Source of the DNA: Nitrosomonas sp.
GTDB taxonomy: Bacteria > Pseudomonadota > Gammaproteobacteria > Burkholderiales > Nitrosomonadaceae
Assembly (NCBI RefSeq): GCF_019635155.1
Contig: NZ_JAHBZY010000001.1
Span: 248,001-312,000, forward strand
Length of the DNA: 64,000 bases
Direction: 5' to 3'
A program made the translations under genes and the position numbers. Below the pieces are notes generated by a model. It searched no databases. It had not been told where the DNA came from and saw only the letters and a list, made by a program, of their open reading frames with translations. Position 1 is the stretch's first letter. The number at the start of each line of letters is the position of its first letter. Below are positions 8,557-28,660 of the stretch, one piece after another.

Positions 8557-9738
8557 TTATGTCAAGCTGCGCAAACGGCTAAAAACATCTCCTACATATT
8601 GAATTTGTTCGTATGTATGGGCTGCATTTACGCTGCATCGAACCAATGATTTTCCTTCCGGGGCCGCGGGTGGAAGAATCAGATTCACATAGATATTATT
8701 TTCAAGCAACTTCTGCCATAGCAGCAAAGCCTGTTGCGGAGTGTCAACGATTGCCGCGATAACCGGACCTGGATCGGGTCCGAGAACATATCCGGCATCT
8801 TTAAGCCGTGTATAAAGTTGTATGCAGTTATGCCATAGTTGTGTGCGTAAGTGATTGCCTTTTCTAAGCAATTCTAATGCGGCACGAGTTGATGCGATGG
8901 TTGCTGGTGACGGCGATGCCGTAAAAATATAAGGGTGACTGACATACCGAAGTTGATTGAGTTGCGGATGATTACTGACGCAAAATCCACCGATGCTACA
9001 TAAGCTTTTACTAAAAGTACCCGTGATAAAATCAACGTCTTTGAGTAATCCGGTTTTCTCGACTAATCCTTGTCCCGTTTCACCTAATACGCCTAGCGAG
9101 TGTGCTTCGTCGAGAAGTAAGGTGCCGCCATAAGTGTTCTTCAATTTTACAATCTCAGCTAAAGGTGCTTGGTCTCCAAGCATGCTGTAAATTCCTTCCG
9201 CGATAATGAGTGTTGTTTCGACTCGGCTGCCCAGTCGGTGTAATCGTTTCTCCATATCAATCATATCATTGTGTTTAAAACGAATGATATCCGCGCCACT
9301 TAAAATACAGCCATCATAGATGCTTGCATGGGAATCGCCATCAATCAGTACTGTGTCTCCAGGTCCGACCAACCCGGTAATTGTTCCCAAGTTAGCTTGG
9401 TAGCCCGTAGTAAATACAATGCTGGAATTGCATTGATAAAAGTCGGCAAATTCTCGTTCTAGAGCGCGATGACCAGAATAGCTACCATTTGCCATTCGCG
9501 ATCCTGTCGTTCCTGTTCCTTCGTTATCAATCGCTTCATGTGCGGCACGAATGCATTCGGGAGCAAAAGTTAATCCCAGATAATTATTTGTACCCAACAG
9601 GAGTACGCGGCGATCACCAATTCTTGCTTCGGTTGCTGAATACACTTCTTCAATCGGTATTCCAAAGGCGCCAACACCATCGGGTAACAGTGCTTTTCTT
9701 GCTGCTGCAGCAGCATCCAGTTTCTCAAGTAGATTCAT
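8557..9738 (-). CDS. spt: Serine palmitoyltransferase-like alpha-oxoamine synthase
   Basis: A PLP-dependent enzyme of 393 residues that condenses an amino acid (serine in the family) with an acyl thioester to a 3-keto sphingoid base. The PLP lysine is K244 in GTFSKS, DEAH is at 210-213, and the stacking His of DSH is at 137. Segments such as SHPYIFTAS, NNIYVNLILPPAAPEG and RCSVNAAHT align by eye with the soluble Sphingomonas enzyme rather than with BioF or KBL. It is the last gene of a four-gene operon; its ATG overlaps the ACP stop (TAATG), so translation is coupled. An alternative is a CqsA-type aminoketone synthase, but the ACP, reductase and acyl-ACP ligase neighbours favour sphingolipid synthesis. 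Confidence 0.82.
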   Translation of the reverse strand: MNLLEKLDAAAAARKALLPDGVGAFGIPIEEVYSATEARIGDRRVLLLGTNNYLGLTFAPECIRAAHEAIDNEGTGTTGSRMANGSYSGHRALEREFADFYQCNSSIVFTTGYQANLGTITGLVGPGDTVLIDGDSHASIYDGCILSGADIIRFKHNDMIDMEKRLHRLGSRVETTLIIAEGIYSMLGDQAPLAEIVKLKNTYGGTLLLDEAHSLGVLGETGQGLVEKTGLLKDVDFITGTFSKSLCSIGGFCVSNHPQLNQLRYVSHPYIFTASPSPATIASTRAALELLRKGNHLRTQLWHNCIQLYTRLKDAGYVLGPDPGPVIAAIVDTPQQALLLWQKLLENNIYVNLILPPAAPEGKSLVRCSVNAAHTYEQIQYVGDVFSRLRSLT

Positions 9739-9992
9739 TATGATGCAAATTTAATTTTATAGACTAAGTCGGCCAATTCCCTAACAGTTTGTACATCCGC
9801 TAACGCATTGATAGGAATTGAAACATCAAAAGTATCTTCAATCTCCATGATAAGATTAAGTAACTTAATTGAGTCGATTGATAATTGACTAATTAGGTTC
9901 GTGTCGGGAGTAATTTCTATATTAGAATTTGTTAAAGTGCTAAGACGATCACAGAGAAGTGATGTAATCTCGTTGTAATTACTTTCGGTCAT
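9738..9992 (-). CDS. Dedicated acyl carrier protein of the sphingolipid operon
   Basis: An 84-residue acidic four-helix carrier protein. The phosphopantetheine attachment serine is S41 in the motif IDSIKL (the classical form is DSLxx). It probably carries the long acyl chain loaded by the neighbouring acyl-ACP synthetase and delivers it to serine palmitoyltransferase, as the dedicated ACP does in the Caulobacter pathway. The stop codon overlaps the spt start. It differs from housekeeping AcpP, which normally sits in the fab cluster. Confidence 0.85.
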   Translation of the reverse strand: MTESNYNEITSLLCDRLSTLTNSNIEITPDTNLISQLSIDSIKLLNLIMEIEDTFDVSIPINALADVQTVRELADLVYKIKFAS

Positions 9993-10016
9993 AAGTAGAT
10001 CAAGTTAATTTAAGAA

Positions 10017-10931
10017 TTAGGCTAATTCCGTCAGCGCATCTTGAAAACGAATTTTTGGCCTCCAAGCTGGCAGCGCTTGCATTAGGGCCGAATTGTCGCA
10101 AACCCAATTGCTATGCTGCAACTCATTAACTTTTCCGGGTGTCAGCATCGGAGAATAATGAAATATGCGAGAAAGCATAAGATTTGAGAAAGCGATGCTA
10201 CGAATAAGCTTGTCGGGTATCGTAACACAGCGTACCGACCGCTTCCATCTCTGCTCCGCTAAATTAGCCAACTGCTGATAACTATATCCATTGGGCATAC
10301 CATCATCAAGCTCAAAGATACCGCTAACATTATTTTCTGCTACGAGACAAGCTAAAATAGCGGCGACTAAATCAAATACGTGAATTAACCCAACTCGGTT
10401 GTTGATCTTTCCCACGACGGGGAGAAATCCACGATGCATGGCGGTGAATAGTGGTTTTAGTTCTTTGTCGCCAGGTCCATATACGGCTGTTGGACGAAAA
10501 ATAACCCAATGCAGTTTGTTCGAGAAATTGATCAGTTTTTGCTCAGATAAATATTTGCTATGAGCATACCAAGATAATTCAGGTTGACGAGCTGCTAAGG
10601 ATGAAATTAATAAGAAACGTGGATAGAATTTTTGATTGGTAAGAACAGAAAGAATATTTTCTGTTCCTTTGATATTAACTTGAGAAAATTCCTTAAATGA
10701 ACTTCCTCTTACGGTAGCTGCGCAATGTATGACAACCGATGCATCTTTGACTAATAGATCCAAAGCTTTGAGGTCATCAAGATCACCACGAATCCATTGG
10801 ATTTCTTGCTCCGGATTAGGCTGATCTGTTCGGGTTAATGCTCGAACTGACCAGCCTTTCTGGATTAACTCTTGTATGAGTATGCTTCCTATGAAACCAG
10901 TAGCACCTGTAACGGCTACTAATTTAGGCAT
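10017..10931 (-). CDS. NAD(P)-dependent epimerase/dehydratase, probable 3-ketosphinganine or ketoceramide reductase
   Basis: An extended short-chain dehydrogenase of 304 residues. The nucleotide motif GATGFIG is at 9-15 and the catalytic Tyr-xxx-Lys (YAHSK) at 122-126, with SS at 110-111 as the third active-site element. Sandwiched between the FAAL-type ligase and the ACP, it fits the role of the extended-SDR reductase (CerR) of bacterial ceramide synthesis, reducing the 3-keto group. That assignment comes from context and family; the sequence alone could also be a sugar epimerase. Confidence 0.75.
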   Translation of the reverse strand: MPKLVAVTGATGFIGSILIQELIQKGWSVRALTRTDQPNPEQEIQWIRGDLDDLKALDLLVKDASVVIHCAATVRGSSFKEFSQVNIKGTENILSVLTNQKFYPRFLLISSLAARQPELSWYAHSKYLSEQKLINFSNKLHWVIFRPTAVYGPGDKELKPLFTAMHRGFLPVVGKINNRVGLIHVFDLVAAILACLVAENNVSGIFELDDGMPNGYSYQQLANLAEQRWKRSVRCVTIPDKLIRSIAFSNLMLSRIFHYSPMLTPGKVNELQHSNWVCDNSALMQALPAWRPKIRFQDALTELA

Positions 10932-10938
10932 ACACAGC

Positions 10939-12762
10939 TTATCTGTCGCCGGATTCTACAAAAGAAAGCTGACTAGAAACATTCGTTCTTTGAATATAAC
11001 CTTGTCTAGCAGCAAAGCGAGATAGCTTTCCGGATGAAGTTCTTGGTAAAGTATGAGGTGGAACCAACTCAACAACACAATTGACACCAAATGCCATATA
11101 AACAAGTTGCTGTAACCTGGTTGTCAATGATTGACGCTCTGTAACCGTGGTAAGTCTGCATTCAATAACTAAAACAATAGTTGTAGTGCCGTCCTCATCA
11201 TTGATGCCAAAAGCTGAAGCCTCACGTGATCTTACTTCTGGTTGTTGTTCCGCCAATTCCTCGATGTCTTGTGCGCGAATATTGCGGCCATTCACTATAA
11301 TGACATCTGTTCTACGCCCTGTAATATACAGATCTCCTTCAAATAAGAAGCCAATATCTCCAGTGTCGAGCCAATTACCGGCTTTAAGCGCTTTATTGGT
11401 TTCTTCAGGGTTATTGTAGTATCCGGTCATTAGGCTGTCACCTTGCACTAATACACTTCCTACCATCTTTTCAGATAATTGCTGACCTTCTTCATCTACA
11501 ATTTTAACAGTATGACCAGGTAAAGGGCGTCCGCAATTAACAAACTCATTTTGCTTGCGACCATCTGCTTGCAGTCTTGCAGCCATTTTCTTGTCAATCA
11601 GTGTTTTACTGTCGACTTGAATACTTTTACATCCTTCACCGAGGGGGGAGAAGGTTACTGCGAGTGTTGATTCTGCAAGACCATAGCATGGTAGAAACGC
11701 GTTTTTGTCGAAACCAGCCGATGCAAATTTTTCGGCGAAGTTTCTTAAAGTATCAGGGCGTATCATTTCGGCACCAATACCAGCTGCCCGCCAACAATTT
11801 AAATCGAGTTCCTTAAGATCAGATTCGCGGACTCGCAACGTGCAAAGTTTCAAGCCAAAAGGCTGACTAAATGCAACAGTACAACGATTGCGACTAATCA
11901 ACCGAAGCCATTGTAAAGGTCGAATCGCAAAATCCCTGGTTGCCAAATAATCGACGGAAATTTGTGTGACCATAGGAGCTAGAACCAATCCAACCAGTCC
12001 CATGTCATGATAAAAAGGTAGCCATGAAGCAGAGCGGTCAGTAGGCCTAATCTGCAAACCATTCCGGACAATTCCTTGCAAATTACTCATTAAAGCCCGT
12101 TCTGTGATTACAACACCTCTTGGCGTACGTGTACTGCCCGATGTAAACTGCAAATAGGCAGTTTCGTCTGGAAGATTCGGGAGAATGTTGAAATCCTTCG
12201 ATGGGGCTTCGCTTAATTTTCCTGGTGTTCCAACCCACTGCACATGATTCGCTTTTGCAGCCGCTTCTTCCAGAAAACTAATGTAATCAAGATTTGCCAG
12301 TGCAATACTAGCTTGACTGCTTTCAAGCATCCCGCGTAATTGTTGTACGTAGATCGCATGACTACCGAGATTAACCGGTATCGGCATTGCAAAAGGTACT
12401 AAACCAGCATAGCGACATGCAAAAAACAATTCGATAAACTCTGGTGAAGTATCAGCAATAATCGCAACTCGACTACCGCGTGATAACTCAAATCCAGCTA
12501 AATTCTGTGCTAAAGCGCGAGCATTCGCTCTGAGTCTGCTATAGGGCAGAACTGAGCGTAAATTACCTTTGGCATCGTAAAAGTTATAGCCTGTCGTGCC
12601 ATTTGCCGCGTATTCCAATGCACTCGTTAGAGTATCAAAACCAGCTAACCTCTGAGACAGAGAATTAAGGGTTGGCGTTGGTGTTAATTGTATTTCGCTT
12701 GAAGGTTGAAAATCAAACGCTTGCGTTAGCGGAGCGTTCAACTTGGTTATTGTCGAACTCAA
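10939..12762 (-). CDS. FAAL-type fatty acyl-AMP ligase / acyl-ACP synthetase
   Basis: An adenylate-forming enzyme of 607 residues. The P-loop-like motif TSGSTRTPRG is at 207-216, followed by SWLPFYHDMG, then CYGLAEST with TLAVTFSP, which is typical of fatty acyl-AMP ligases that pass the acyl group to an ACP and not to CoA. As first gene of the operon it would charge the ACP at 9738-9992 with fatty acid for serine palmitoyltransferase. The start is TTG at 12762, preceded by a strong GAGGGGAAG ribosome site. The downstream reductase begins 8 bases after the stop. Confidence 0.85.
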   Translation of the reverse strand: MSSTITKLNAPLTQAFDFQPSSEIQLTPTPTLNSLSQRLAGFDTLTSALEYAANGTTGYNFYDAKGNLRSVLPYSRLRANARALAQNLAGFELSRGSRVAIIADTSPEFIELFFACRYAGLVPFAMPIPVNLGSHAIYVQQLRGMLESSQASIALANLDYISFLEEAAAKANHVQWVGTPGKLSEAPSKDFNILPNLPDETAYLQFTSGSTRTPRGVVITERALMSNLQGIVRNGLQIRPTDRSASWLPFYHDMGLVGLVLAPMVTQISVDYLATRDFAIRPLQWLRLISRNRCTVAFSQPFGLKLCTLRVRESDLKELDLNCWRAAGIGAEMIRPDTLRNFAEKFASAGFDKNAFLPCYGLAESTLAVTFSPLGEGCKSIQVDSKTLIDKKMAARLQADGRKQNEFVNCGRPLPGHTVKIVDEEGQQLSEKMVGSVLVQGDSLMTGYYNNPEETNKALKAGNWLDTGDIGFLFEGDLYITGRRTDVIIVNGRNIRAQDIEELAEQQPEVRSREASAFGINDEDGTTTIVLVIECRLTTVTERQSLTTRLQQLVYMAFGVNCVVELVPPHTLPRTSSGKLSRFAARQGYIQRTNVSSQLSFVESGDR

Positions 12763-20380: not shown

Positions 20381-21061
20381 TTAATTCCCATCAGCTTCAA
20401 GAATGGTGATGTTTGAGTTCGCAAGTTGCGATAGCCAAGTGAAAGGTATTTTCGAATCGGGATCTCTTGTCAATTTATCCAGCAACCGCCGCTTTTTTTC
20501 ACCTGCTACCACCAGCGCAATCCGCTCGCTGTTTGCCAATATTTCCAGTGAAAGACTGATGCGTAGCGAAGGTGCAATCGGGGGGGCGACGGCGATGCAG
20601 TGATGCGCCGATAGCGAATTGGGATTCATGCCCGGGAATAACGAGGCAATGTGGCCGTCTTCACCTAAACCTAACACGGTCAGACTGACCGGTAACGGCA
20701 GGCGATCCAAGCGTTGGTGAATCGTTTCGATGGCGTCGAACGGATTGTCATGCGCGGTTTTCAATCCGACGAAGCGGGCATGTTCCGGAAGGTGTTGCAT
20801 CAAGCATTGTTTTACCAATCGTTCGTTCGATTGCTCGTCATTAGTGTCGACCCAGCGTTCATCCGACACCGTGACGGTGATCCGGTCCCAGGGTAGCTGA
20901 CATTTCACCAATGCGGGCAGGTAATGGCGCGGGGTGCCGCCGCCGGGAACGACGAGCGTGGCTTGCGGTTTCCGGCTTAAGGTGTCGCGTAGTGCGGCTG
21001 CGGCAAAATCGGCAAAGCCTTGGCTTAACGATTCAATATCCGGGTAGGTGCGTCTTTGCAT
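20381..21061 (-). CDS. pgl: 6-phosphogluconolactonase
   Basis: A 226-residue DevB/NagB-fold enzyme with VPGGGTPRHYLPAL near the start, SDERWV in the middle and the LGLGEDGHIASLFPG signature. It hydrolyses 6-phosphogluconolactone in the pentose phosphate route. Unusually it is the last gene of the sugar-acid operon and not beside zwf, 16 bases after the HAD phosphatase gene. Either it is carried there by chance or it serves a lactone intermediate of that pathway. Confidence 0.88.
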   Translation of the reverse strand: MQRRTYPDIESLSQGFADFAAAALRDTLSRKPQATLVVPGGGTPRHYLPALVKCQLPWDRITVTVSDERWVDTNDEQSNERLVKQCLMQHLPEHARFVGLKTAHDNPFDAIETIHQRLDRLPLPVSLTVLGLGEDGHIASLFPGMNPNSLSAHHCIAVAPPIAPSLRISLSLEILANSERIALVVAGEKKRRLLDKLTRDPDSKIPFTWLSQLANSNITILEADGN

Positions 21062-21077
21062 CGTGGCGCTGCCAACG

Positions 21078-21719
21078 TTATTGCACTAATCCGCGTAAAT
21101 TCGGAACGACTTCGATATGTGCCGGAAACGGGTTGGGGTCGCCGGGAAAGACGCGGCCCAGGAAAGCGGTGTTGTTGGCTTGCGCGCCTTCCAGGTCGGC
21201 CATGGCGTCGCCGATCATCAGTACTGATCCGGGTTTCAAGCCGTGTACCGATAGGATTTCCGCAATGATGGTTTTTTTCAATGCCGGAGCGCCGCGTACA
21301 TCGGTGAAATAAGGCGCGAGGCCGCGGCGCTCGACGATCACCTTGAGCTCGGCTTCCGGAGTGCCGGAGGCGACAAACAATGGGATTCTGCCGGATTGTT
21401 GGCGAATCAATTCGATTGCGCCAGGCACCGGCTCGGCGGCGACCACGGCTTCGACCACCAGTTCGGAAAAACGGATATCGAGCTGTTGCTCTTCCGCTTC
21501 GGTCAATGGCGGTTGGTGCAGGAAATGTTCCTGAAAATGGCGGAATTTACGGTAGCGCGACATGCCGCCGTTTTGCGTATGGAATTGCACCACTTGCGCG
21601 ACGATGTCGTCACCGTAAGAGCGGTAGAGCTCGGCGAACGCTTGGGTTTTGATTTTACCGGATTCGACCACGACGCCGTCGAAATCGAAAATGATCGCCT
21701 GCCAGTTGAATGATGGCAT
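21078..21719 (-). CDS. HAD-superfamily phosphatase
   Basis: A 213-residue subfamily IA HAD hydrolase. Motif I FDFDGVVVES carries the nucleophile Asp and acid/base Asp. Motif II is the Ser of VASGTPE, the Lys of motif III is in PALKKTI, and motif IV is the GDAMADLEGA acidic pair. It probably dephosphorylates a sugar phosphate. It lies 4 bases after the SDR gene, inside the operon running from 25122 down to 20381. Confidence 0.85.
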   Translation of the reverse strand: MPSFNWQAIIFDFDGVVVESGKIKTQAFAELYRSYGDDIVAQVVQFHTQNGGMSRYRKFRHFQEHFLHQPPLTEAEEQQLDIRFSELVVEAVVAAEPVPGAIELIRQQSGRIPLFVASGTPEAELKVIVERRGLAPYFTDVRGAPALKKTIIAEILSVHGLKPGSVLMIGDAMADLEGAQANNTAFLGRVFPGDPNPFPAHIEVVPNLRGLVQ

Positions 21720-21723
21720 CGCA

Positions 21724-22662
21724 TCAAGCCCGGTTATCCGGCGTGGCCGGGGTGGCGTCGCCGTTTTCGTCGCCGTGGTGCAGATCCTGGTGAATTTCCC
21801 GCAAGCAATCGAGCATGCCTTGCCCCAGATCGACGTGTTCGTTCAGTACCAATTTGCGGCCGATCTTCGGTTGGAATGCATACGGCGTAATTTTGTAGTG
21901 ATGCACGGTATTGGCTTCGTCAAAATGTAATTCGACCGGCCACGGCATCATTTCCGAAATCATCGTCATGACATCCCTGATGCGTAATTTTTCCTGACCG
22001 GTCAGGATCAAGTGGCGGTTAGCGAATTCCGGCGCCAGCACTTGCACGCTCATGCGCGCCGCGTCTTCGACATGAATGTATTCGCGCATGGCTTCGCCGC
22101 TGCCTTTGTAGGTAATCGAATGGTGCTCGATCGCTTCGCGCAGCATGCGGTAAATACCGTTGCGCTGGTCGGCGCGGCGGCCGTACAGCGAGCCGTAGCG
22201 CAGAATGTTGTAATCCAGGCCGTAACGTTCGTGGTAAGTTTCGGTAAAGCGTTCCGCCGCTTGCTTGCTGGCGCGGTAAAACGAACCGGATTCGGAGTAC
22301 ACGTATACGGTGCTGGCAAACACAAACCGCCGGGCGCCAGCGATGCGGGCGGCTTCGAGCGTGTGCATATTGCCAAGTACATTGATGGTCGCGGTTGGGA
22401 TCGGTTTGTCGTGTGCTTCGTCGATGTCAGCAATCGCTGCAAAGTTATACACGATCGAGGCACCCTTGGCGGCTTCGATAACTTGTTCAAGATTCATGAT
22501 ATCGCCGACGATCATTTCCTGATTGCTTTTCAGAAAAGGCGATGCGACCCGGTCGAATAATCGCACCTGATATCCCGCTGCCGTCAAGGCATCGGCGACA
22601 TGACTGCCGAGAAAACCGCTGGCGCCGAATACGATCACTTTTTCATTGGAAATGGCTGTCAT
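21724..22662 (-). CDS. NAD-dependent sugar epimerase/dehydratase (extended SDR)
   Basis: A 312-residue extended SDR. The NAD motif is GASGFLGS near residue 14 and the catalytic YRASK has Tyr and Lys in the usual spacing, with FASTVYVY supplying the Ser/Thr. It resembles nucleotide-sugar 4-epimerases and UDP-glucuronate-type enzymes. The start overlaps the dehydrogenase stop (ATGA type), so it is translationally coupled to it. The C-terminal tail is acidic and rich in Asp/Asn/Ala. Confidence 0.85.
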   Translation of the reverse strand: MTAISNEKVIVFGASGFLGSHVADALTAAGYQVRLFDRVASPFLKSNQEMIVGDIMNLEQVIEAAKGASIVYNFAAIADIDEAHDKPIPTATINVLGNMHTLEAARIAGARRFVFASTVYVYSESGSFYRASKQAAERFTETYHERYGLDYNILRYGSLYGRRADQRNGIYRMLREAIEHHSITYKGSGEAMREYIHVEDAARMSVQVLAPEFANRHLILTGQEKLRIRDVMTMISEMMPWPVELHFDEANTVHHYKITPYAFQPKIGRKLVLNEHVDLGQGMLDCLREIHQDLHHGDENGDATPATPDNRA

Positions 22663-23591
22663 GAGATTGCACCTGTTTTGATGAGGCCTTGCAATAAATT
22701 GTCCGCTGCTTCGATTTCCATGCGTTGACGCGATTCCCGGGCCAGCGATCCGACATGCGATGTCAGGGTGATGTTGTCAATATCGAGCAGCGGGCCTTGA
22801 TACGGCTCCTGTTCAAACACGTCGAGCGCTGCAGCGCTGACTTTGCCGGATTTGAGCGCATCGGCCAGCGCATTCTCGTCGATCAATCCGCCGCGCGCGG
22901 CGTTGATGACGATCGCTTCCGGTTTCATCGCCGCGAATGCTCCGGTATTCAACAAGTGATGCGTATCGGTGGAATACGGCAGGTGCAGCGTGATGATATC
23001 GGCGCTTGCGAGCAGTCGCTCCAGGGATACTAATGCCACGCCATCCGGCACTTGCGATGCAAACGGGTCGTGCGCGATCACGCTGGCTTCAAACGCTTGG
23101 CACAAGCGCGCGATGCGGCGGCCAATATGCCCCAAGCCGATGATGCCGATGGTTTGCGCCGCTAACAGACGGCCTTGCGTGCGCGGCCATTCTTTTTGGC
23201 GAACGGCACGATCGATACTGGCGGTTTGCCGCAGCAAGCTCAAAATAAATCCCATCGTTAATTCAGCAACCGCCTGTGCCGGTGCTTCCGGCGTGTTCAA
23301 CACCGTGATGCCGCGCTGTTTGGCGGCACTCAAATCGACGCTATCCAGCCCGGCGCCACAACGGGAAACAACTTTCAGTTGCGGCGATGCGTGAAAAACC
23401 CGTTCGGTTAACGGTTCGATTCCGGCGATCAGGCCGACCGCGCCATCGCCCAGTAGCTCGATAATTTCATCTTCGGTGAGCTTGCGTTTGTGCGGGTTGG
23501 TGACGATGCGCATGCCTTTTTGCCGCAATTGTTGCAGCGGTGGGTTGTTGTCGATGTCAAACGACGAAGTGGAAATAACCAAAGTGTTCAT
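22659..23591 (-). CDS. D-2-hydroxyacid (phosphoglycerate-type) dehydrogenase
   Basis: A 310-residue NAD-dependent D-isomer-specific dehydrogenase with the Rossmann motif GLGHIGRRI, NAARGGLID holding the catalytic Arg region, ALDVFEQEP with the Glu, and SHVGSLARES with the catalytic His. It lacks the ACT regulatory domain of SerA, which argues for a biosynthetic role on a sugar acid. The ATG at 23591 was preferred over one at 23636 because the TAATG overlap with the aldolase stop couples the two genes. Confidence 0.88.
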   Translation of the reverse strand: MNTLVISTSSFDIDNNPPLQQLRQKGMRIVTNPHKRKLTEDEIIELLGDGAVGLIAGIEPLTERVFHASPQLKVVSRCGAGLDSVDLSAAKQRGITVLNTPEAPAQAVAELTMGFILSLLRQTASIDRAVRQKEWPRTQGRLLAAQTIGIIGLGHIGRRIARLCQAFEASVIAHDPFASQVPDGVALVSLERLLASADIITLHLPYSTDTHHLLNTGAFAAMKPEAIVINAARGGLIDENALADALKSGKVSAAALDVFEQEPYQGPLLDIDNITLTSHVGSLARESRQRMEIEAADNLLQGLIKTGAIS

Positions 23592-24358
23592 TATTTTTTC
23601 AGTGCGGTGCGGATGATTTGTAAGTGGTTGCGGCAAATGGCGTCGAGAATGCGGATATCCAACGCGTAGCCGAGGAAATTGAAGCCGGCTTCGATGCGTT
23701 GTTGCAAGGCTTGCGGATCGGGTTCGATGACATGAATGCCGCCGGGCTTGCCAGCGCGGTGACCGGCTTCGAGCACTTGCGCGATGGCGGCTTGCACGTC
23801 AGAATGGTTCAAGTCGCCGGGACGCCCCATCGAACCGGATAAATCGTATGGACCGATGATATACGCATCGATGCCGGGTACTGCAAGGATTTCATCGATG
23901 GCTTTGACCGCATCGACATGCTCGATCATAACGACGATTACCGCATTTTCTTCCAACCAGGCGCGGTAGGTAGGAAAGCTGGCGCCGTAGCCTTGCGCGC
24001 GCGCCAATCCGACACCGCGTTGCCCGCGCGGCGGGTAATAGACGCCGTCGACTGCGGCTTTGGCATCGGCAGCGGACTTGATCATCGGCACCATAATGCC
24101 GGTCGCACCGGCATCCATGACGCGCTTGATTTGATCGGGATGGTTCGAGGTCAGGCGCACGATCGCCGGGCATTGCTTGGCGTCGAGCACCTGGATAATG
24201 GCTTGTACTTCGTTCAGTTCCAACACGCTGTGCTCGGTATCCAGCACCAGCCAGTCGAACCCGGCGGACGCCATGATTTCGGCGATCGATGGATGGCCCA
24301 GCGTGACCCAGGAGCCGATGGTCAATTCAGACCGGTTCAATTTTGTTTTTAATGACAT
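23591..24358 (-). CDS. HpcH/HpaI-family class II aldolase
   Basis: A 255-residue metal-dependent pyruvate aldolase, like HpaI or 2-dehydro-3-deoxyglucarate aldolase. Key residues are His in LDTEHS (catalytic base), the Arg of VRLTS, and metal ligands Glu in MIEHVDAV and Asp in GPYDLSGS. The family joins pyruvate to an aldehyde to give a 2-keto-3-deoxy or 4-hydroxy-2-keto acid. Catabolic partners (hpa or gar genes) are absent; instead it lies next to a cytidylyltransferase, so I infer synthesis of a keto-deoxy sugar acid. Confidence 0.87.
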   Translation of the reverse strand: MSLKTKLNRSELTIGSWVTLGHPSIAEIMASAGFDWLVLDTEHSVLELNEVQAIIQVLDAKQCPAIVRLTSNHPDQIKRVMDAGATGIMVPMIKSAADAKAAVDGVYYPPRGQRGVGLARAQGYGASFPTYRAWLEENAVIVVMIEHVDAVKAIDEILAVPGIDAYIIGPYDLSGSMGRPGDLNHSDVQAAIAQVLEAGHRAGKPGGIHVIEPDPQALQQRIEAGFNFLGYALDIRILDAICRNHLQIIRTALKK

Positions 24359-24372
24359 GATGAATTCGGATT

Positions 24373-25122
24373 CTAGTAGTGGGAAAGCAACGGATCGGAT
24401 GCCATCAATTTCTCGACGCGTTGCAGATCGGCCGTGGTATCGACCGCTTGCGTGTTGTATTCGGTATGCACCATGCGCACCGGCAGGCCGTGTTCGAGTA
24501 AACGCAACATATCGATCGATTCTAATTGCTCCAAGGGCGTCGGCGTCAGGCGGGTGTATTGAAACAGCAGGTCACGGCGGAACGGGATGATACATACTTG
24601 CTTATAGGCGGCGGTATTGGCAAAGCCGTTTTTGGCCAGGGTCGGGATCGGACGGCGCGACATATACAGCGCATTGCCGTTTTGATCCATCACGACTTTG
24701 ATGGTGTTGACGTCGAGATAGTCGGCTTCATGATCGATTTTTTTGACCAGATTGACGCAACCAAGCTGCGGATCGTGTTTGAACGGCGCAACCGCGGTAT
24801 CGACCATGTTCGGGTGCGTCATCGGCTCGTCGCCTTGCACCATCACGATTAAATCCGCATCCAGATTGGTTACCGCCTCGGCAACGCGATCGCTGGCGCG
24901 TTCATGGGTATCGGCGGTCATAATGACCCTGGCGCCAAAACCTTCCGCAATGTCACGGATTTCTTCGTCGCAAGTGGCGATATAGGTAGCATCGATCGAT
25001 TGACTCATGGCTACGCGTTTATAGATATGCTCGATCATCGGACGGCCGAGGATTTTCGCGACCGGTTTGCCCGGAAAACGGGATGAGCCCATGCGGGCCG
25101 GAATAACAGCGATTGTTTTCAT
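24373..25122 (-). CDS. KdsB-like CMP-sugar (3-deoxy-ulosonate) cytidylyltransferase
   Basis: A 249-residue nucleotidyltransferase. The CTP-binding start is IPARMGSSRFPGKP, HERASDRVAEA corresponds to the KdsB substrate segment, and VQGDEPM is the metal-binding motif. Length is that of KdsB (CMP-KDO synthetase), but the first motif leans towards NeuA/SpsF relatives. The aldolase neighbour suggests a substrate other than ordinary KDO. The ATG at 25122 (MKTIAVIPA) was chosen over one at 25176. It is the first gene of the leftward operon. Confidence 0.85.
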   Translation of the reverse strand: MKTIAVIPARMGSSRFPGKPVAKILGRPMIEHIYKRVAMSQSIDATYIATCDEEIRDIAEGFGARVIMTADTHERASDRVAEAVTNLDADLIVMVQGDEPMTHPNMVDTAVAPFKHDPQLGCVNLVKKIDHEADYLDVNTIKVVMDQNGNALYMSRRPIPTLAKNGFANTAAYKQVCIIPFRRDLLFQYTRLTPTPLEQLESIDMLRLLEHGLPVRMVHTEYNTQAVDTTADLQRVEKLMASDPLLSHY

Positions 25123-25397: not shown

Positions 25398-26663
25398 ATG
25401 AAAGCTCTTTTTTTTCTCCGCCACTATAACGATATCGATCATGTGACACCGGTCATATACAAATGGATCAGTTCCGGTCATCAATGCGATGTCGTATTGA
25501 TCGGTTCCGCGCAGTTCCGCCGTGATTTTCGTGTCAAATATCTGAGTCAGTTGCAGGGTGTGCGCGTTGCGCATATGAAAGAACTGTTCCCGTTGCTTGA
25601 ATATATCAAATGGCGCTTGCAAATGTTAATGCTGACACGCAATGTGCGGCGCATCAAAGTGATCGGCAGGATCGCCGAGAAATTGGCCGAACGTATTGAC
25701 GAGCGGCAGCGCGAACCGTTGTGGCGGCATACCGCCGAATTTCTGCTGAATCGTTGTTTTGGCAACGATACCAAAGGTGTGGTGGCGTTTGATTGGATCG
25801 AAAGAAATTCGGTAATTTGCGTGGAATGGGTGGAAGTCGTCGTCGCTATTGCCAGACACCGGGGGTTCGGCACGGTATCGTTGCCGCACGGTGATAGCCC
25901 CCATTACAGCCAATTAATCCGCCGCGGCGAACGGCGCGTCGAACCGGATGTCACGTTTTCGGCAGCGACTATTTTCGACCGGGTGGTCGTTCCTAACGAG
26001 TTATGCTCGGTGCGCTTCCGTCCTTTTATGAACGAGGGCCGGTTGGCAGTGTTGGGATCGCCTCGCTACTGCGAAGAATGGTTAAAAATCCTTTCCGGCT
26101 TGATGCCGCCGTCGCCGCTGGTACGCTCCGATAGCCGGTTGAAAATTGTCATGTTCTTGCGCAAAGCCAATTTCACCACTTTCTGGGAAGAGGTGAGCGA
26201 AGTGGTGCATCTGATCGCCGAATTTCCCGATGTGGAATTGATTATTAAACCGCATACCCGTAGTGGTTGGAAGCAATCTCTCACAACCGACAGCTCCATC
26301 AAAAAATTGCCGAATGTCCGGGTTGCCAGCGATGATGCGCATTCGGTGCATTTGATGAATTGGGCTGATGTCATTATCGATTTGGCGACGTCTGTGGTGT
26401 TCGAAGCGGTGCGGGCGAAAAAGCCGGTTTTGGCGGCTGATTATTTAATCGCGGCGCGCTCCGCCGTTGCTTATTACATGCCGGAAACGGAATTGAAATG
26501 CCGCGATGATGTGTACGAAAAGATTAATGGTTTTCTAACCAGTGGAGTCAATTCTTTCTATATCGAGGAACACCGGCAGCGTTTCTTAGAGGAAATGCTG
26601 GATTATCCGGATGCCAATGTGTTACCTCGTTATGTATCCTTGCTGGAACAACTGGCGAGTTGA
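25398..26663 (+). CDS. Putative glycosyltransferase / CDP-glycerol glycerophosphotransferase-like protein
   Basis: A 421-residue protein with two Rossmann-like halves of GT-B type. The N-terminal half opens MKALFFLRHYNDIDHV. The C-terminal half has LPHGDSPH, then KPHTRSG and WADVIIDLATSVVFEAV, which resemble capsule glycosyltransferases (KpsC/KpsS-like) and CDP-glycerol glycerophosphotransferases. It is divergent from the CMP-sugar operon, so it is a good candidate for the enzyme that uses the activated sugar. The donor and acceptor are not visible from sequence. Confidence 0.65.
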   Translation: MKALFFLRHYNDIDHVTPVIYKWISSGHQCDVVLIGSAQFRRDFRVKYLSQLQGVRVAHMKELFPLLEYIKWRLQMLMLTRNVRRIKVIGRIAEKLAERIDERQREPLWRHTAEFLLNRCFGNDTKGVVAFDWIERNSVICVEWVEVVVAIARHRGFGTVSLPHGDSPHYSQLIRRGERRVEPDVTFSAATIFDRVVVPNELCSVRFRPFMNEGRLAVLGSPRYCEEWLKILSGLMPPSPLVRSDSRLKIVMFLRKANFTTFWEEVSEVVHLIAEFPDVELIIKPHTRSGWKQSLTTDSSIKKLPNVRVASDDAHSVHLMNWADVIIDLATSVVFEAVRAKKPVLAADYLIAARSAVAYYMPETELKCRDDVYEKINGFLTSGVNSFYIEEHRQRFLEEMLDYPDANVLPRYVSLLEQLAS

Positions 26664-27631: not shown

Positions 27632-28660
27632 ATGAGTAATCTCATTACTCCCATCATCGATGTTGTAATTCCCGTTTACAACGCACCGGAATTAACCCGG
27701 CGATGCATTGATTCCGTAGTGGCGCATCTTGGCGCATCAATCCGCACCATTCATATTCAGAACGATGCATCCGCTGAAGAAACGCGAACGATGCTCGACC
27801 GTTTGACGTATCCGCAAGTACAGATTTTCCATGCACCGGTCAACCAAGGGTACGGTCGATCGGTGAACGACGCGATGGCGCGTTCGGATGCCGAATTAGT
27901 ATTGGTGCTCAATTCCGATAGCGAGGTGACCGCGAATTTTTTACCGCTACTGTGCAATGCCTTGGCTGCCGATTCAAAATTAGCGGTGATCAATCCAACC
28001 GAAGGGGAAATGCCGCGCGGCACAGCTAACCGCTACCTGCAACAGCCGGGCGGTTATATCGAAACTTATCGTTTCCGCGGCTATGCTTTCTTGATTCGCC
28101 ACGCCGTGTTCCAAGCTTTAGGCGGATTCGACGTGCAATTTGAGCGGGGATATTACGAAGATACCGACCTCGGGCGCCGCTTGGAACAGCAGGGATGGCG
28201 CATGGGTATACATCCGCAAGCGGCCATCAAGCATAAAATCGGTGCTTCTTTCGGGCGTGGCCGGCCGTATCTTGAGTTGGTGCGCAAAAACCGCAATCTT
28301 TATCTTTCGCGCTACCCGCGGGCGCGGCAGAATGTGTTGGTGGTTTCGGGTGTATCGACGTTGACCGGTTTGCCGCTTCCGGCAGTGGATGCAATAGAGC
28401 AAGTGATGCGGCAAGGCGGGCGGGTGGAGTGGTTAACACCGGAAAGTTTGCCGCAGCTTTCCTGCCTGCAAATGCGCAACAGCAAAATCCGATCGAATAG
28501 AATTATCAAACTGATGGTGCGCGGCTGGTCACGTAAAGATAAACGCGTCACCGATCTATGGTTTTTTCCCGGCACGGCCATCTGGCTGCGTTGGTTGCTA
28601 CGAATATGGGCGCGCTTGCGCGGCATAAGGATACGCGAATGGGAAGCGGCGGTGTCTTAG
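27632..28660 (+). CDS. Family 2 glycosyltransferase
   Basis: A 342-residue GT-A enzyme. The GT2 start is VVIPVYNAPELT, the DXD-like nucleotide-sugar motif sits in LNSDSEV, and GYYEDTDLGRRLEQQG (acceptor-side ED motif) resembles rhamnosyltransferase-type GT2 proteins. The C-terminal 60 residues are basic with a hydrophobic tail, which would place it on the inner membrane. The 146-base gap before it contains TTGACG and an inverted repeat ACATAT/ATATGT, so it may have its own promoter. It overlaps the O-antigen ligase gene by 22 bases. Confidence 0.88.
   Translation: MSNLITPIIDVVIPVYNAPELTRRCIDSVVAHLGASIRTIHIQNDASAEETRTMLDRLTYPQVQIFHAPVNQGYGRSVNDAMARSDAELVLVLNSDSEVTANFLPLLCNALAADSKLAVINPTEGEMPRGTANRYLQQPGGYIETYRFRGYAFLIRHAVFQALGGFDVQFERGYYEDTDLGRRLEQQGWRMGIHPQAAIKHKIGASFGRGRPYLELVRKNRNLYLSRYPRARQNVLVVSGVSTLTGLPLPAVDAIEQVMRQGGRVEWLTPESLPQLSCLQMRNSKIRSNRIIKLMVRGWSRKDKRVTDLWFFPGTAIWLRWLLRIWARLRGIRIREWEAAVS

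Follow-up and report, generated by a model that had tools for sequence, protein, structure and literature searches.

Described routes to CMP-activated sugar acids and the Nitrosomonas operon

3-Deoxy-D-manno-octulosonic acid (KDO) and the sialic-type acids are normally made by synthases dependent on phosphoenolpyruvate (PEP), namely KdsA and NeuB, and are then activated with cytidine monophosphate (CMP), and we know of no CMP-activated sugar acid that is built other than by a PEP synthase. In the genome of a Nitrosomonas sp. (assembly GCF_019635155.1; 3.09 Mb, completeness rating 100%) we analysed a stretch of 64,000 nucleotides, contig C1 248001-312000 (hereafter the window), in which six adjacent genes on the minus strand (20381-25122) encode a KdsB-like cytidylyltransferase, an HpcH/HpaI aldolase, a D-2-hydroxyacid dehydrogenase, an extended short-chain dehydrogenase/reductase (SDR), a HAD phosphatase and a 6-phosphogluconolactonase (Pgl) family protein. 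From sequence comparison we judge it probable, at about 60%, that this operon serves the biosynthesis of a CMP-activated 2-keto sugar acid distinct from KDO, as a cassette in which the aldolase would take the carbon-chain step and whose product would enter the surface glycan of a cell free of lipid A. This reading is favoured because a set of five of the genes is conserved, their catalytic residues are intact, the KDO and lipid A genes searched for are absent, the cytidylyltransferase falls in a distinct clade with switched residues and the set recurs with two types of cytidylyltransferase.

The KdsB/KpsU-like cytidylyltransferase (24373-25122, 249 aa, PF02348) is predicted to activate the non-KDO 2-keto sugar acid with CMP, and the HpcH/HpaI class II aldolase (23591-24358, 255 aa, PF03328) to carry out the C-C bond step. 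These are followed by the phosphoglycerate-dehydrogenase-like D-2-hydroxyacid dehydrogenase (22659-23591, 310 aa, PF02826 and PF00389), which begins at an ATG within a longer TTG-initiated open reading frame (ORF), the extended SDR (21724-22662, 312 aa, PF01370), the HAD phosphatase (21078-21719, 213 aa, PF00702) and the Pgl family protein (20381-21061, 226 aa, TIGR01198 at 144 bits against a cut-off of 124). All six run from ATG to stop in the re-checked ORF list. The initial annotation had assigned these six identities, a spacing of 4-16 bases or overlap, and a dehydrogenase without an ACT domain, and each point was confirmed: Pfam and NCBIfam profiles match the six proteins, the gaps from the KdsB-like gene to the Pgl gene are 14, -1, -4, 4 and 16 bp, and the dehydrogenase matches only the two 2-Hacid_dh domains and an overlapping NAD_binding_2.

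The operon resembles the KDO pathway (KdsD, KdsA, KdsC and KdsB) and its capsule version (KpsF and KpsU) in KdsB/KpsU-type CMP activation, a phosphatase and the presumed use in a surface glycan, but KdsA, KdsD and the KDO transferase WaaA were not found in the family Nitrosomonadaceae and the operon adds the HpcH aldolase, the dehydrogenase and the SDR. The two capsule KdsB copies examined stand, unlike the cassette, one with kdsA and KpsF and the other with KpsF. The nonulosonic pathways (NeuB/NeuA, Pse, Leg and Kdn) likewise comprise a 2-keto sugar acid, CMP activation, in some cases a phosphatase, and a neighbouring glycosyltransferase; these general features are alike, whereas the cassette operon lacks NeuB (no Pfam match among the six genes) and the NeuB of this genome lies elsewhere, in a separate operon on contig C13. 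The aldolases HpaI, GarL and 2-keto-3-deoxyrhamnonate aldolase, and SwHKA, have the PF03328 family and the catalytic residues in common with the cassette aldolase. The first three are catabolic, while the cassette protein scores well below their equivalog cut-offs and lies in an anabolic-looking set.

Two plasmid loci offer further comparisons. In Leisingera (L183, 7646-10648) an 'aldolase catalytic domain' protein, a KdsB of 35% identity and a HAD protein lie side by side among glycan genes, and this KdsB has Q175 and C177 as in the cassette; the triplet differs in the name of its aldolase, in the absence of any annotated 2-hydroxyacid dehydrogenase within 20 kb and in its SDRs, which are annotated as GDP-fucose enzymes, and it may represent a further way of making a CMP sugar acid with an aldolase. 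In Marivivens (L196, 5557-8388) the gene next after kdsB encodes a HAD-IA hydrolase, which may replace KdsC, and a 'glycosyltransferase N-terminal domain' protein adjoins. The initial annotation knew of no named pathway with this combination of genes, and within the open-licence literature, outside which most subscription papers lie, we also found no name or description of the route.

Conservation of the gene set and missing KDO and lipid A genes

Related loci were found with the aldolase, and the best 80 of 130 were compared, partly from the same genomes as a sample of 100 Nitrosomonadaceae genomes; all but six are recorded as Nitrosomonas, Nitrosospira, Nitrosovibrio or Nitrosomonadaceae. 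Genes one to five, from the KdsB-like gene through HAD, are present in 74 of the 80 loci, without exception collinear and on the same strand, and five of the six incomplete loci end at a contig edge. Such conservation far exceeds chance, and the synteny across related loci rules out a chance adjacency of the genes. The initial annotation had staked its proposal on these neighbours being kept together in other genomes; as the genes recur together elsewhere, also outside the family, a lack of conserved neighbourhood is not what is seen. The KdsB-like protein itself, at an identity of at least 69%, was found in 98 of the 100 family genomes, including every one of the 89 that are at least 90% complete, and the two without it are 89% (G021) and 74% (G029) complete. 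The sixth gene is less constant: Pgl comes after HAD in 55 of the 80 loci, and no match to it was seen in 16 loci that extend 2.3 kb or more past HAD, which include all those recorded as Nitrosospira or Nitrosovibrio that are of sufficient length.

Genes of the KDO and lipid A pathways were searched for with controls, including E. coli, that were positive every time. KdsA (TIGR01362, cut-off 314 bits) had no match in the genome of study and none over the cut-off in the 100 family genomes, WaaA (PF04413) was found in none of the 100, and neither LpxC nor the arabinose-5-phosphate isomerase KdsD/KpsF (TIGR00393) exceeded its cut-off in any of 61. Weak TIGR00393 matches occur in 57 of these 61 genomes, and among the matches listed nearly all align to the C-terminal half of the model. 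By comparison, among 150 genomes sampled from the order KdsA is over its cut-off in 137 and WaaA in 133. The genomes without KdsA are five Nitrosomonadaceae, two of another family (f221; G505 and G548) and six others, one of which has KdsA split across two contigs; those without WaaA are the same five and the same two along with ten others, eight of them less than 90% complete. The two f221 genomes also have no KdsB among the matches listed, and their lineage is possibly a second one without lipid A.

For Kdo2-lipid A, a report of 2010 lists lpxK as the only gene retained by Nitrosomonas europaea and lpxA as the only one retained by Nitrosospira multiformis (PMC3087551). The loss described there for two species is extended here to the sampled family, with LpxC absent from 61 of 61 genomes and KdsA and WaaA from 100 of 100.

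The cytidylyltransferase clade, catalytic residues and the set outside the family

The KdsB-like protein has the CTP_transf_3 domain and the metal-binding Gln/Asp/Asp of the KdsB/KpsU family, and retains R10, R15, K19, Q96, D98, K142 and R156. It falls short of the kdsB equivalog models TIGR00466 (150.2 against 155.2 bits) and NF003948 (172 against 281). As a query it matches 349 of the 369 genomes in a class-wide sample, and among the matches listed only G436 (59-60%) and G265 (46%) exceed 43% identity outside the family. From these searches we kept 169 proteins that match over at least 75% of the query, have a frame of fitting length and contain no X, and 64 rows picked by hand were placed in a midpoint-rooted tree, where the plasmid rows L183, L195 and L196 are long and unsurely placed. 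Fourteen cassette cytidylyltransferases, including that of G436, are set apart by a branch supported at 99/88, and together with the relatives L123 and L179 the support is 100/97; the second KdsB of G436 falls among the ordinary KdsBs.

The cassette proteins were then compared with 41 ordinary KdsBs, a non-random sample made up of those nearest to the query among the class and order matches with loci and the second copy of G436. A position was called switched where one residue reaches at least 90% in the ordinary KdsBs and another at least 90% in the cassette set. There are 13 such positions, ten of which are invariant in 41 of 41 ordinary KdsBs and are kept in the capsule copy L195 as well; among these ten, the changes from ordinary to cassette include D51C, G76A, N94M, H175Q, G177C, Y179I, E204D and Q205M. 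The metal ligands, identified as Q96, D98 and D228 from the roles given for the capsule enzyme in PMC2901514, are maintained: Q96 and D98 are unchanged throughout, and all 14 cassette proteins, against 35 of the 41 ordinary KdsBs, have Asp at position 228. PMC3149649 supplied no residues that contact KDO. The copy of G717, which was not among the proteins used to define the switches, agrees with the cassette set at 11 of the 13 positions. A separate standing from any housekeeping KdsB was the other point on which the initial annotation had rested its proposal, and a housekeeping KdsB is ruled out, because the tested KDO-associated genes (KdsA, KdsD, WaaA and LpxC) were not found and the tree places the protein apart from the clade of ordinary KdsBs.

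The partner enzymes also appear catalytically intact. With PF03328 and its catalytic His, Arg, Glu and Asp the aldolase belongs to the HpcH/HpaI superfamily, and H43, R68, E146 and D172 are invariant in 18 rows of Nitrosomonadaceae and distant copies; the roles described for His45 and Arg70 (PMC8560999) and for the Glu and Asp metal ligands (PMC10099721) were mapped onto the protein by eye. The aldolases of the cassettes, also those found in G436, G717, G744 and an Acuticoccus plasmid, have in common a two-residue insertion (G-x-H-[VI]), which is absent from the aldolases of L123, L179 and L185. In the dehydrogenase, whose nearest solved structure is the phosphoglycerate dehydrogenase 1wwk, R233, E262 and H279 are invariant over the family and distant copies, as are S117, Y129 and K133 in the SDR and D12, D14, K148, D171 and D175 in the HAD protein, all of which we take to be catalytic.

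Outside the family, G436, from another order of the same class, holds all five homologs within 7 kb (KdsB-like 59%, SDR 52%, dehydrogenase 42%, aldolase 37% and HAD 36% identity) in addition to its ordinary KdsB. The surroundings, judged by eye from the ORFs, appear to be polysaccharide genes, and one neighbour matches the surface carbohydrate family TIGR04326. All five genes are also present in G717. On the plasmid NZ_CP094833.1 of Acuticoccus sp. I52.16.1 the aldolase (41%), dehydrogenase (47%), HAD (44%) and SDR (50%) are consecutive, and the row includes a cytidylyltransferase that matches PseF (82 bits, below the cut-off) and CTP_transf_3 and is not matched by a KdsB model. The recurrence of the set with a PseF/NeuA-type enzyme instead of a KdsB-like one points to CMP activation as its purpose.

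SDR copies of 44-54% identity occur in other lineages, and a phylum-wide search with the SDR (E 1e-50) matched 10 of 398 genomes, eight of them outside the family. Their nine distant SDR loci were compared, with the dehydrogenase present in eight and HAD in six. Pgl, over its TIGR01198 cut-off, lies near the module in three (L209, L210 and L214), 1 bp from the dehydrogenase in L210 and on the opposite strand several genes away in L214. That Pgl is an unrelated passenger was favoured at first on account of the 16 family loci without it, and was weakened by these three occurrences. In L209, L212, L213, L214 and L215 the SDR, mostly with the dehydrogenase, lies near genes for radical SAM (SPASM or B12-binding), transketolase or carbamoyltransferase proteins.

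Other plasmids were less informative. No cassette genes are annotated in the Azospirillum plasmid stretches around HAD matches, or around the plasmid KdsB copies of Streptomyces, Bacteroides, Fusobacterium and Parabacteroides. Two further stretches carry no annotated feature. What appears to be a catabolic set on a Streptomyces plasmid combines an HpcH aldolase and a phosphoglycerate dehydrogenase, and on a Leisingera plasmid a phosphoglycerate dehydrogenase adjoins an NTP transferase with no aldolase.

Proposed route, rival explanations and envelope context

In the route that we propose, a phosphorylated sugar would be prepared or oxidised by the SDR and the dehydrogenase, together with the lactonase in loci that have one, and the HpcH-type aldolase would make or remake the carbon chain with pyruvate or hydroxypyruvate, taking the place of a KdsA- or NeuB-like PEP synthase. 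Removal of the phosphate by the HAD enzyme and coupling of the acid to CMP by the KdsB-like enzyme would follow, after which the product of a divergently oriented gene may move it to a glycan or glycolipid at the surface of the lipid-A-free outer membrane. With pyruvate as donor the product would be a 3-deoxy acid. Transketolase can use hydroxypyruvate, and hydroxypyruvate as the alternative donor would account for the frequent phosphoglycerate-dehydrogenase-like and phosphatase partners and for the transketolase in two of the distant loci; a related aldolase, SwHKA, converts hydroxypyruvate (PMC10099721). A bolder and, in our view, unlikely extension is an as yet unnamed modular class of pathways for CMP-ulosonic acids based on hydroxypyruvate chemistry, in which the envelope acid of the lipid-A-free Nitrosomonadaceae would not be 3-deoxy but would carry a 3-hydroxyl, as Ko does. 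There the SDR, lactonase and 2-hydroxyacid dehydrogenase would give 2-ketoaldonate phosphates, formally aldols of hydroxypyruvate and an aldose, the chain would be set by the HpcH aldolase or elsewhere by a transketolase, NeuB or radical SAM enzyme, and CMP would be added by a KdsB-like or NeuA/PseF-like enzyme.

The putative transferase gene (25398-26663, plus strand) has no Pfam family, and in 70 of the 80 loci a divergently oriented homolog stands no more than 1.2 kb from the KdsB-like gene. The protein matches the glycosyltransferase model NF046086 weakly (34.5 of 200 bits) and its sequence returned nothing useful from the solved structures, but a structure model (predicted local distance difference test, pLDDT, 83.9) matches GT-B-fold proteins in a fold search, which fits a glycosyltransferase and, we propose, one for the CMP-sugar acid. 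A paralog of 60% identity on contig C13 of the same genome adjoins NeuB and a cytidylyltransferase fused to a KdsC-like phosphatase. That stretch (L124, 1320-5810) also holds a paralog of the gene at 27632 of the window, and is apparently a second CMP-ulosonate operon.

Several observations weigh against the cassette as proposed. Aldolase matches occur in only two of the nine distant SDR loci and in none of the other seven, which means that building the chain may not depend on the aldolase; near these aldolase-less loci lie NeuB (one), transketolase (two) or radical SAM-SPASM (two) genes, and the two further ones have, of such candidates, only a radical SAM protein of the B12-binding kind or a cyclase-family protein. 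A CTP_transf_3 match is present in only four of the nine, some of which are short contigs, and for this reason the absences are uncertain. Across these loci, then, the two oxidoreductases stay constant and the C-C enzyme varies. The proposal of the initial annotation is partly supported, in that the genes form a conserved unit, also outside the family, with a cytidylyltransferase distinct from the housekeeping KdsB; it was made without the family-wide lack of LpxC, KdsA and WaaA and without the paralog of the divergent gene beside a second CMP-sugar-acid operon, both of which are added here. Within the family, a long Nitrosomonas locus (L008) with the KdsB-like, aldolase, dehydrogenase and SDR genes has no HAD or Pgl match in 14.8 kb, and matches to the KdsA model below the cut-off (at most 111 of 314 bits) occur in 83 of the 100 genomes, although these are probably other synthases of the DAHP (3-deoxy-D-arabino-heptulosonate 7-phosphate) type. 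Besides, the G717 cytidylyltransferase retains the ordinary residue at positions 141 and 154, and the GT-B fold leaves the donor of the divergently encoded protein unspecified.

The same cytidylyltransferase passes the KdsB subfamily models NF009905 (311 bits, cut-off 255) and NF003952 (287.6, cut-off 193), and its nearest solved structure is 1gq9 (171 bits, with the remaining KdsBs at 115-136), which is a capsule-specific CMP-KDO synthetase (PMC2901514). It could accordingly be read as a diverged KDO enzyme in an operon making KDO or KDO 8-phosphate, where the aldolase and HAD might replace KdsA and KdsC. We regard this as improbable: KdsD, WaaA and LpxC are missing alongside KdsA, ten positions held by every ordinary KdsB compared and by the capsule copy are switched, G436 holds the cassette besides an ordinary KdsB, and the dehydrogenase and SDR would have no evident role. 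The scarcity of the aldolase in the distant loci, where the dehydrogenase is nearly constant, and the position of Pgl after HAD or beside the distant module would instead suit a scheme in which oxidoreductases alone yield a 2-ketoaldonic acid (by way of a lactone formed by the SDR, the lactonase, the 2-hydroxyacid dehydrogenase and the phosphatase) before CMP is added, and the aldolase only reshapes it. This too seems unlikely to us, given the 16 family loci in which Pgl is unmatched and the weak resemblance of the SDR to Azf, a glucose-6-phosphate dehydrogenase that depends on NAD (34 bits, whereas scores against other SDR models reach 83). The compound joined to CMP might also be no sugar acid at all but, for example, a phosphonate or a small hydroxy acid; the nucleotidyl activation of phosphonates offers a precedent (PMC6697681), but we consider this very improbable here, as the protein groups with the KdsBs and retains the seven residues listed above, and no PEP mutase match occurs among the six genes, the rest of the genome not having been searched for one.

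The window also carries a ceramide gene set on the minus strand (8557-12762), which includes a serine palmitoyltransferase (NF047599, 568 bits against a cut-off of 500, with serine palmitoyltransferases as its best solved matches), an SDR, a fatty acyl-AMP ligase and, recognised by eye, a small ORF resembling acyl carrier proteins (9738-9992). Ceramide-type genes have been described in Nitrosomonas eutropha (PMC9386255, PMC11324152), and the set fits an outer membrane without lipid A. If the proposed cassette is real, CMP-activated sugar acids would have a further route, one that includes an aldolase and whose genes are all but universal in this ecologically central family of ammonia oxidisers. 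The gene set also provides a handle on the question of what covers the outer membrane of the Nitrosomonadaceae.

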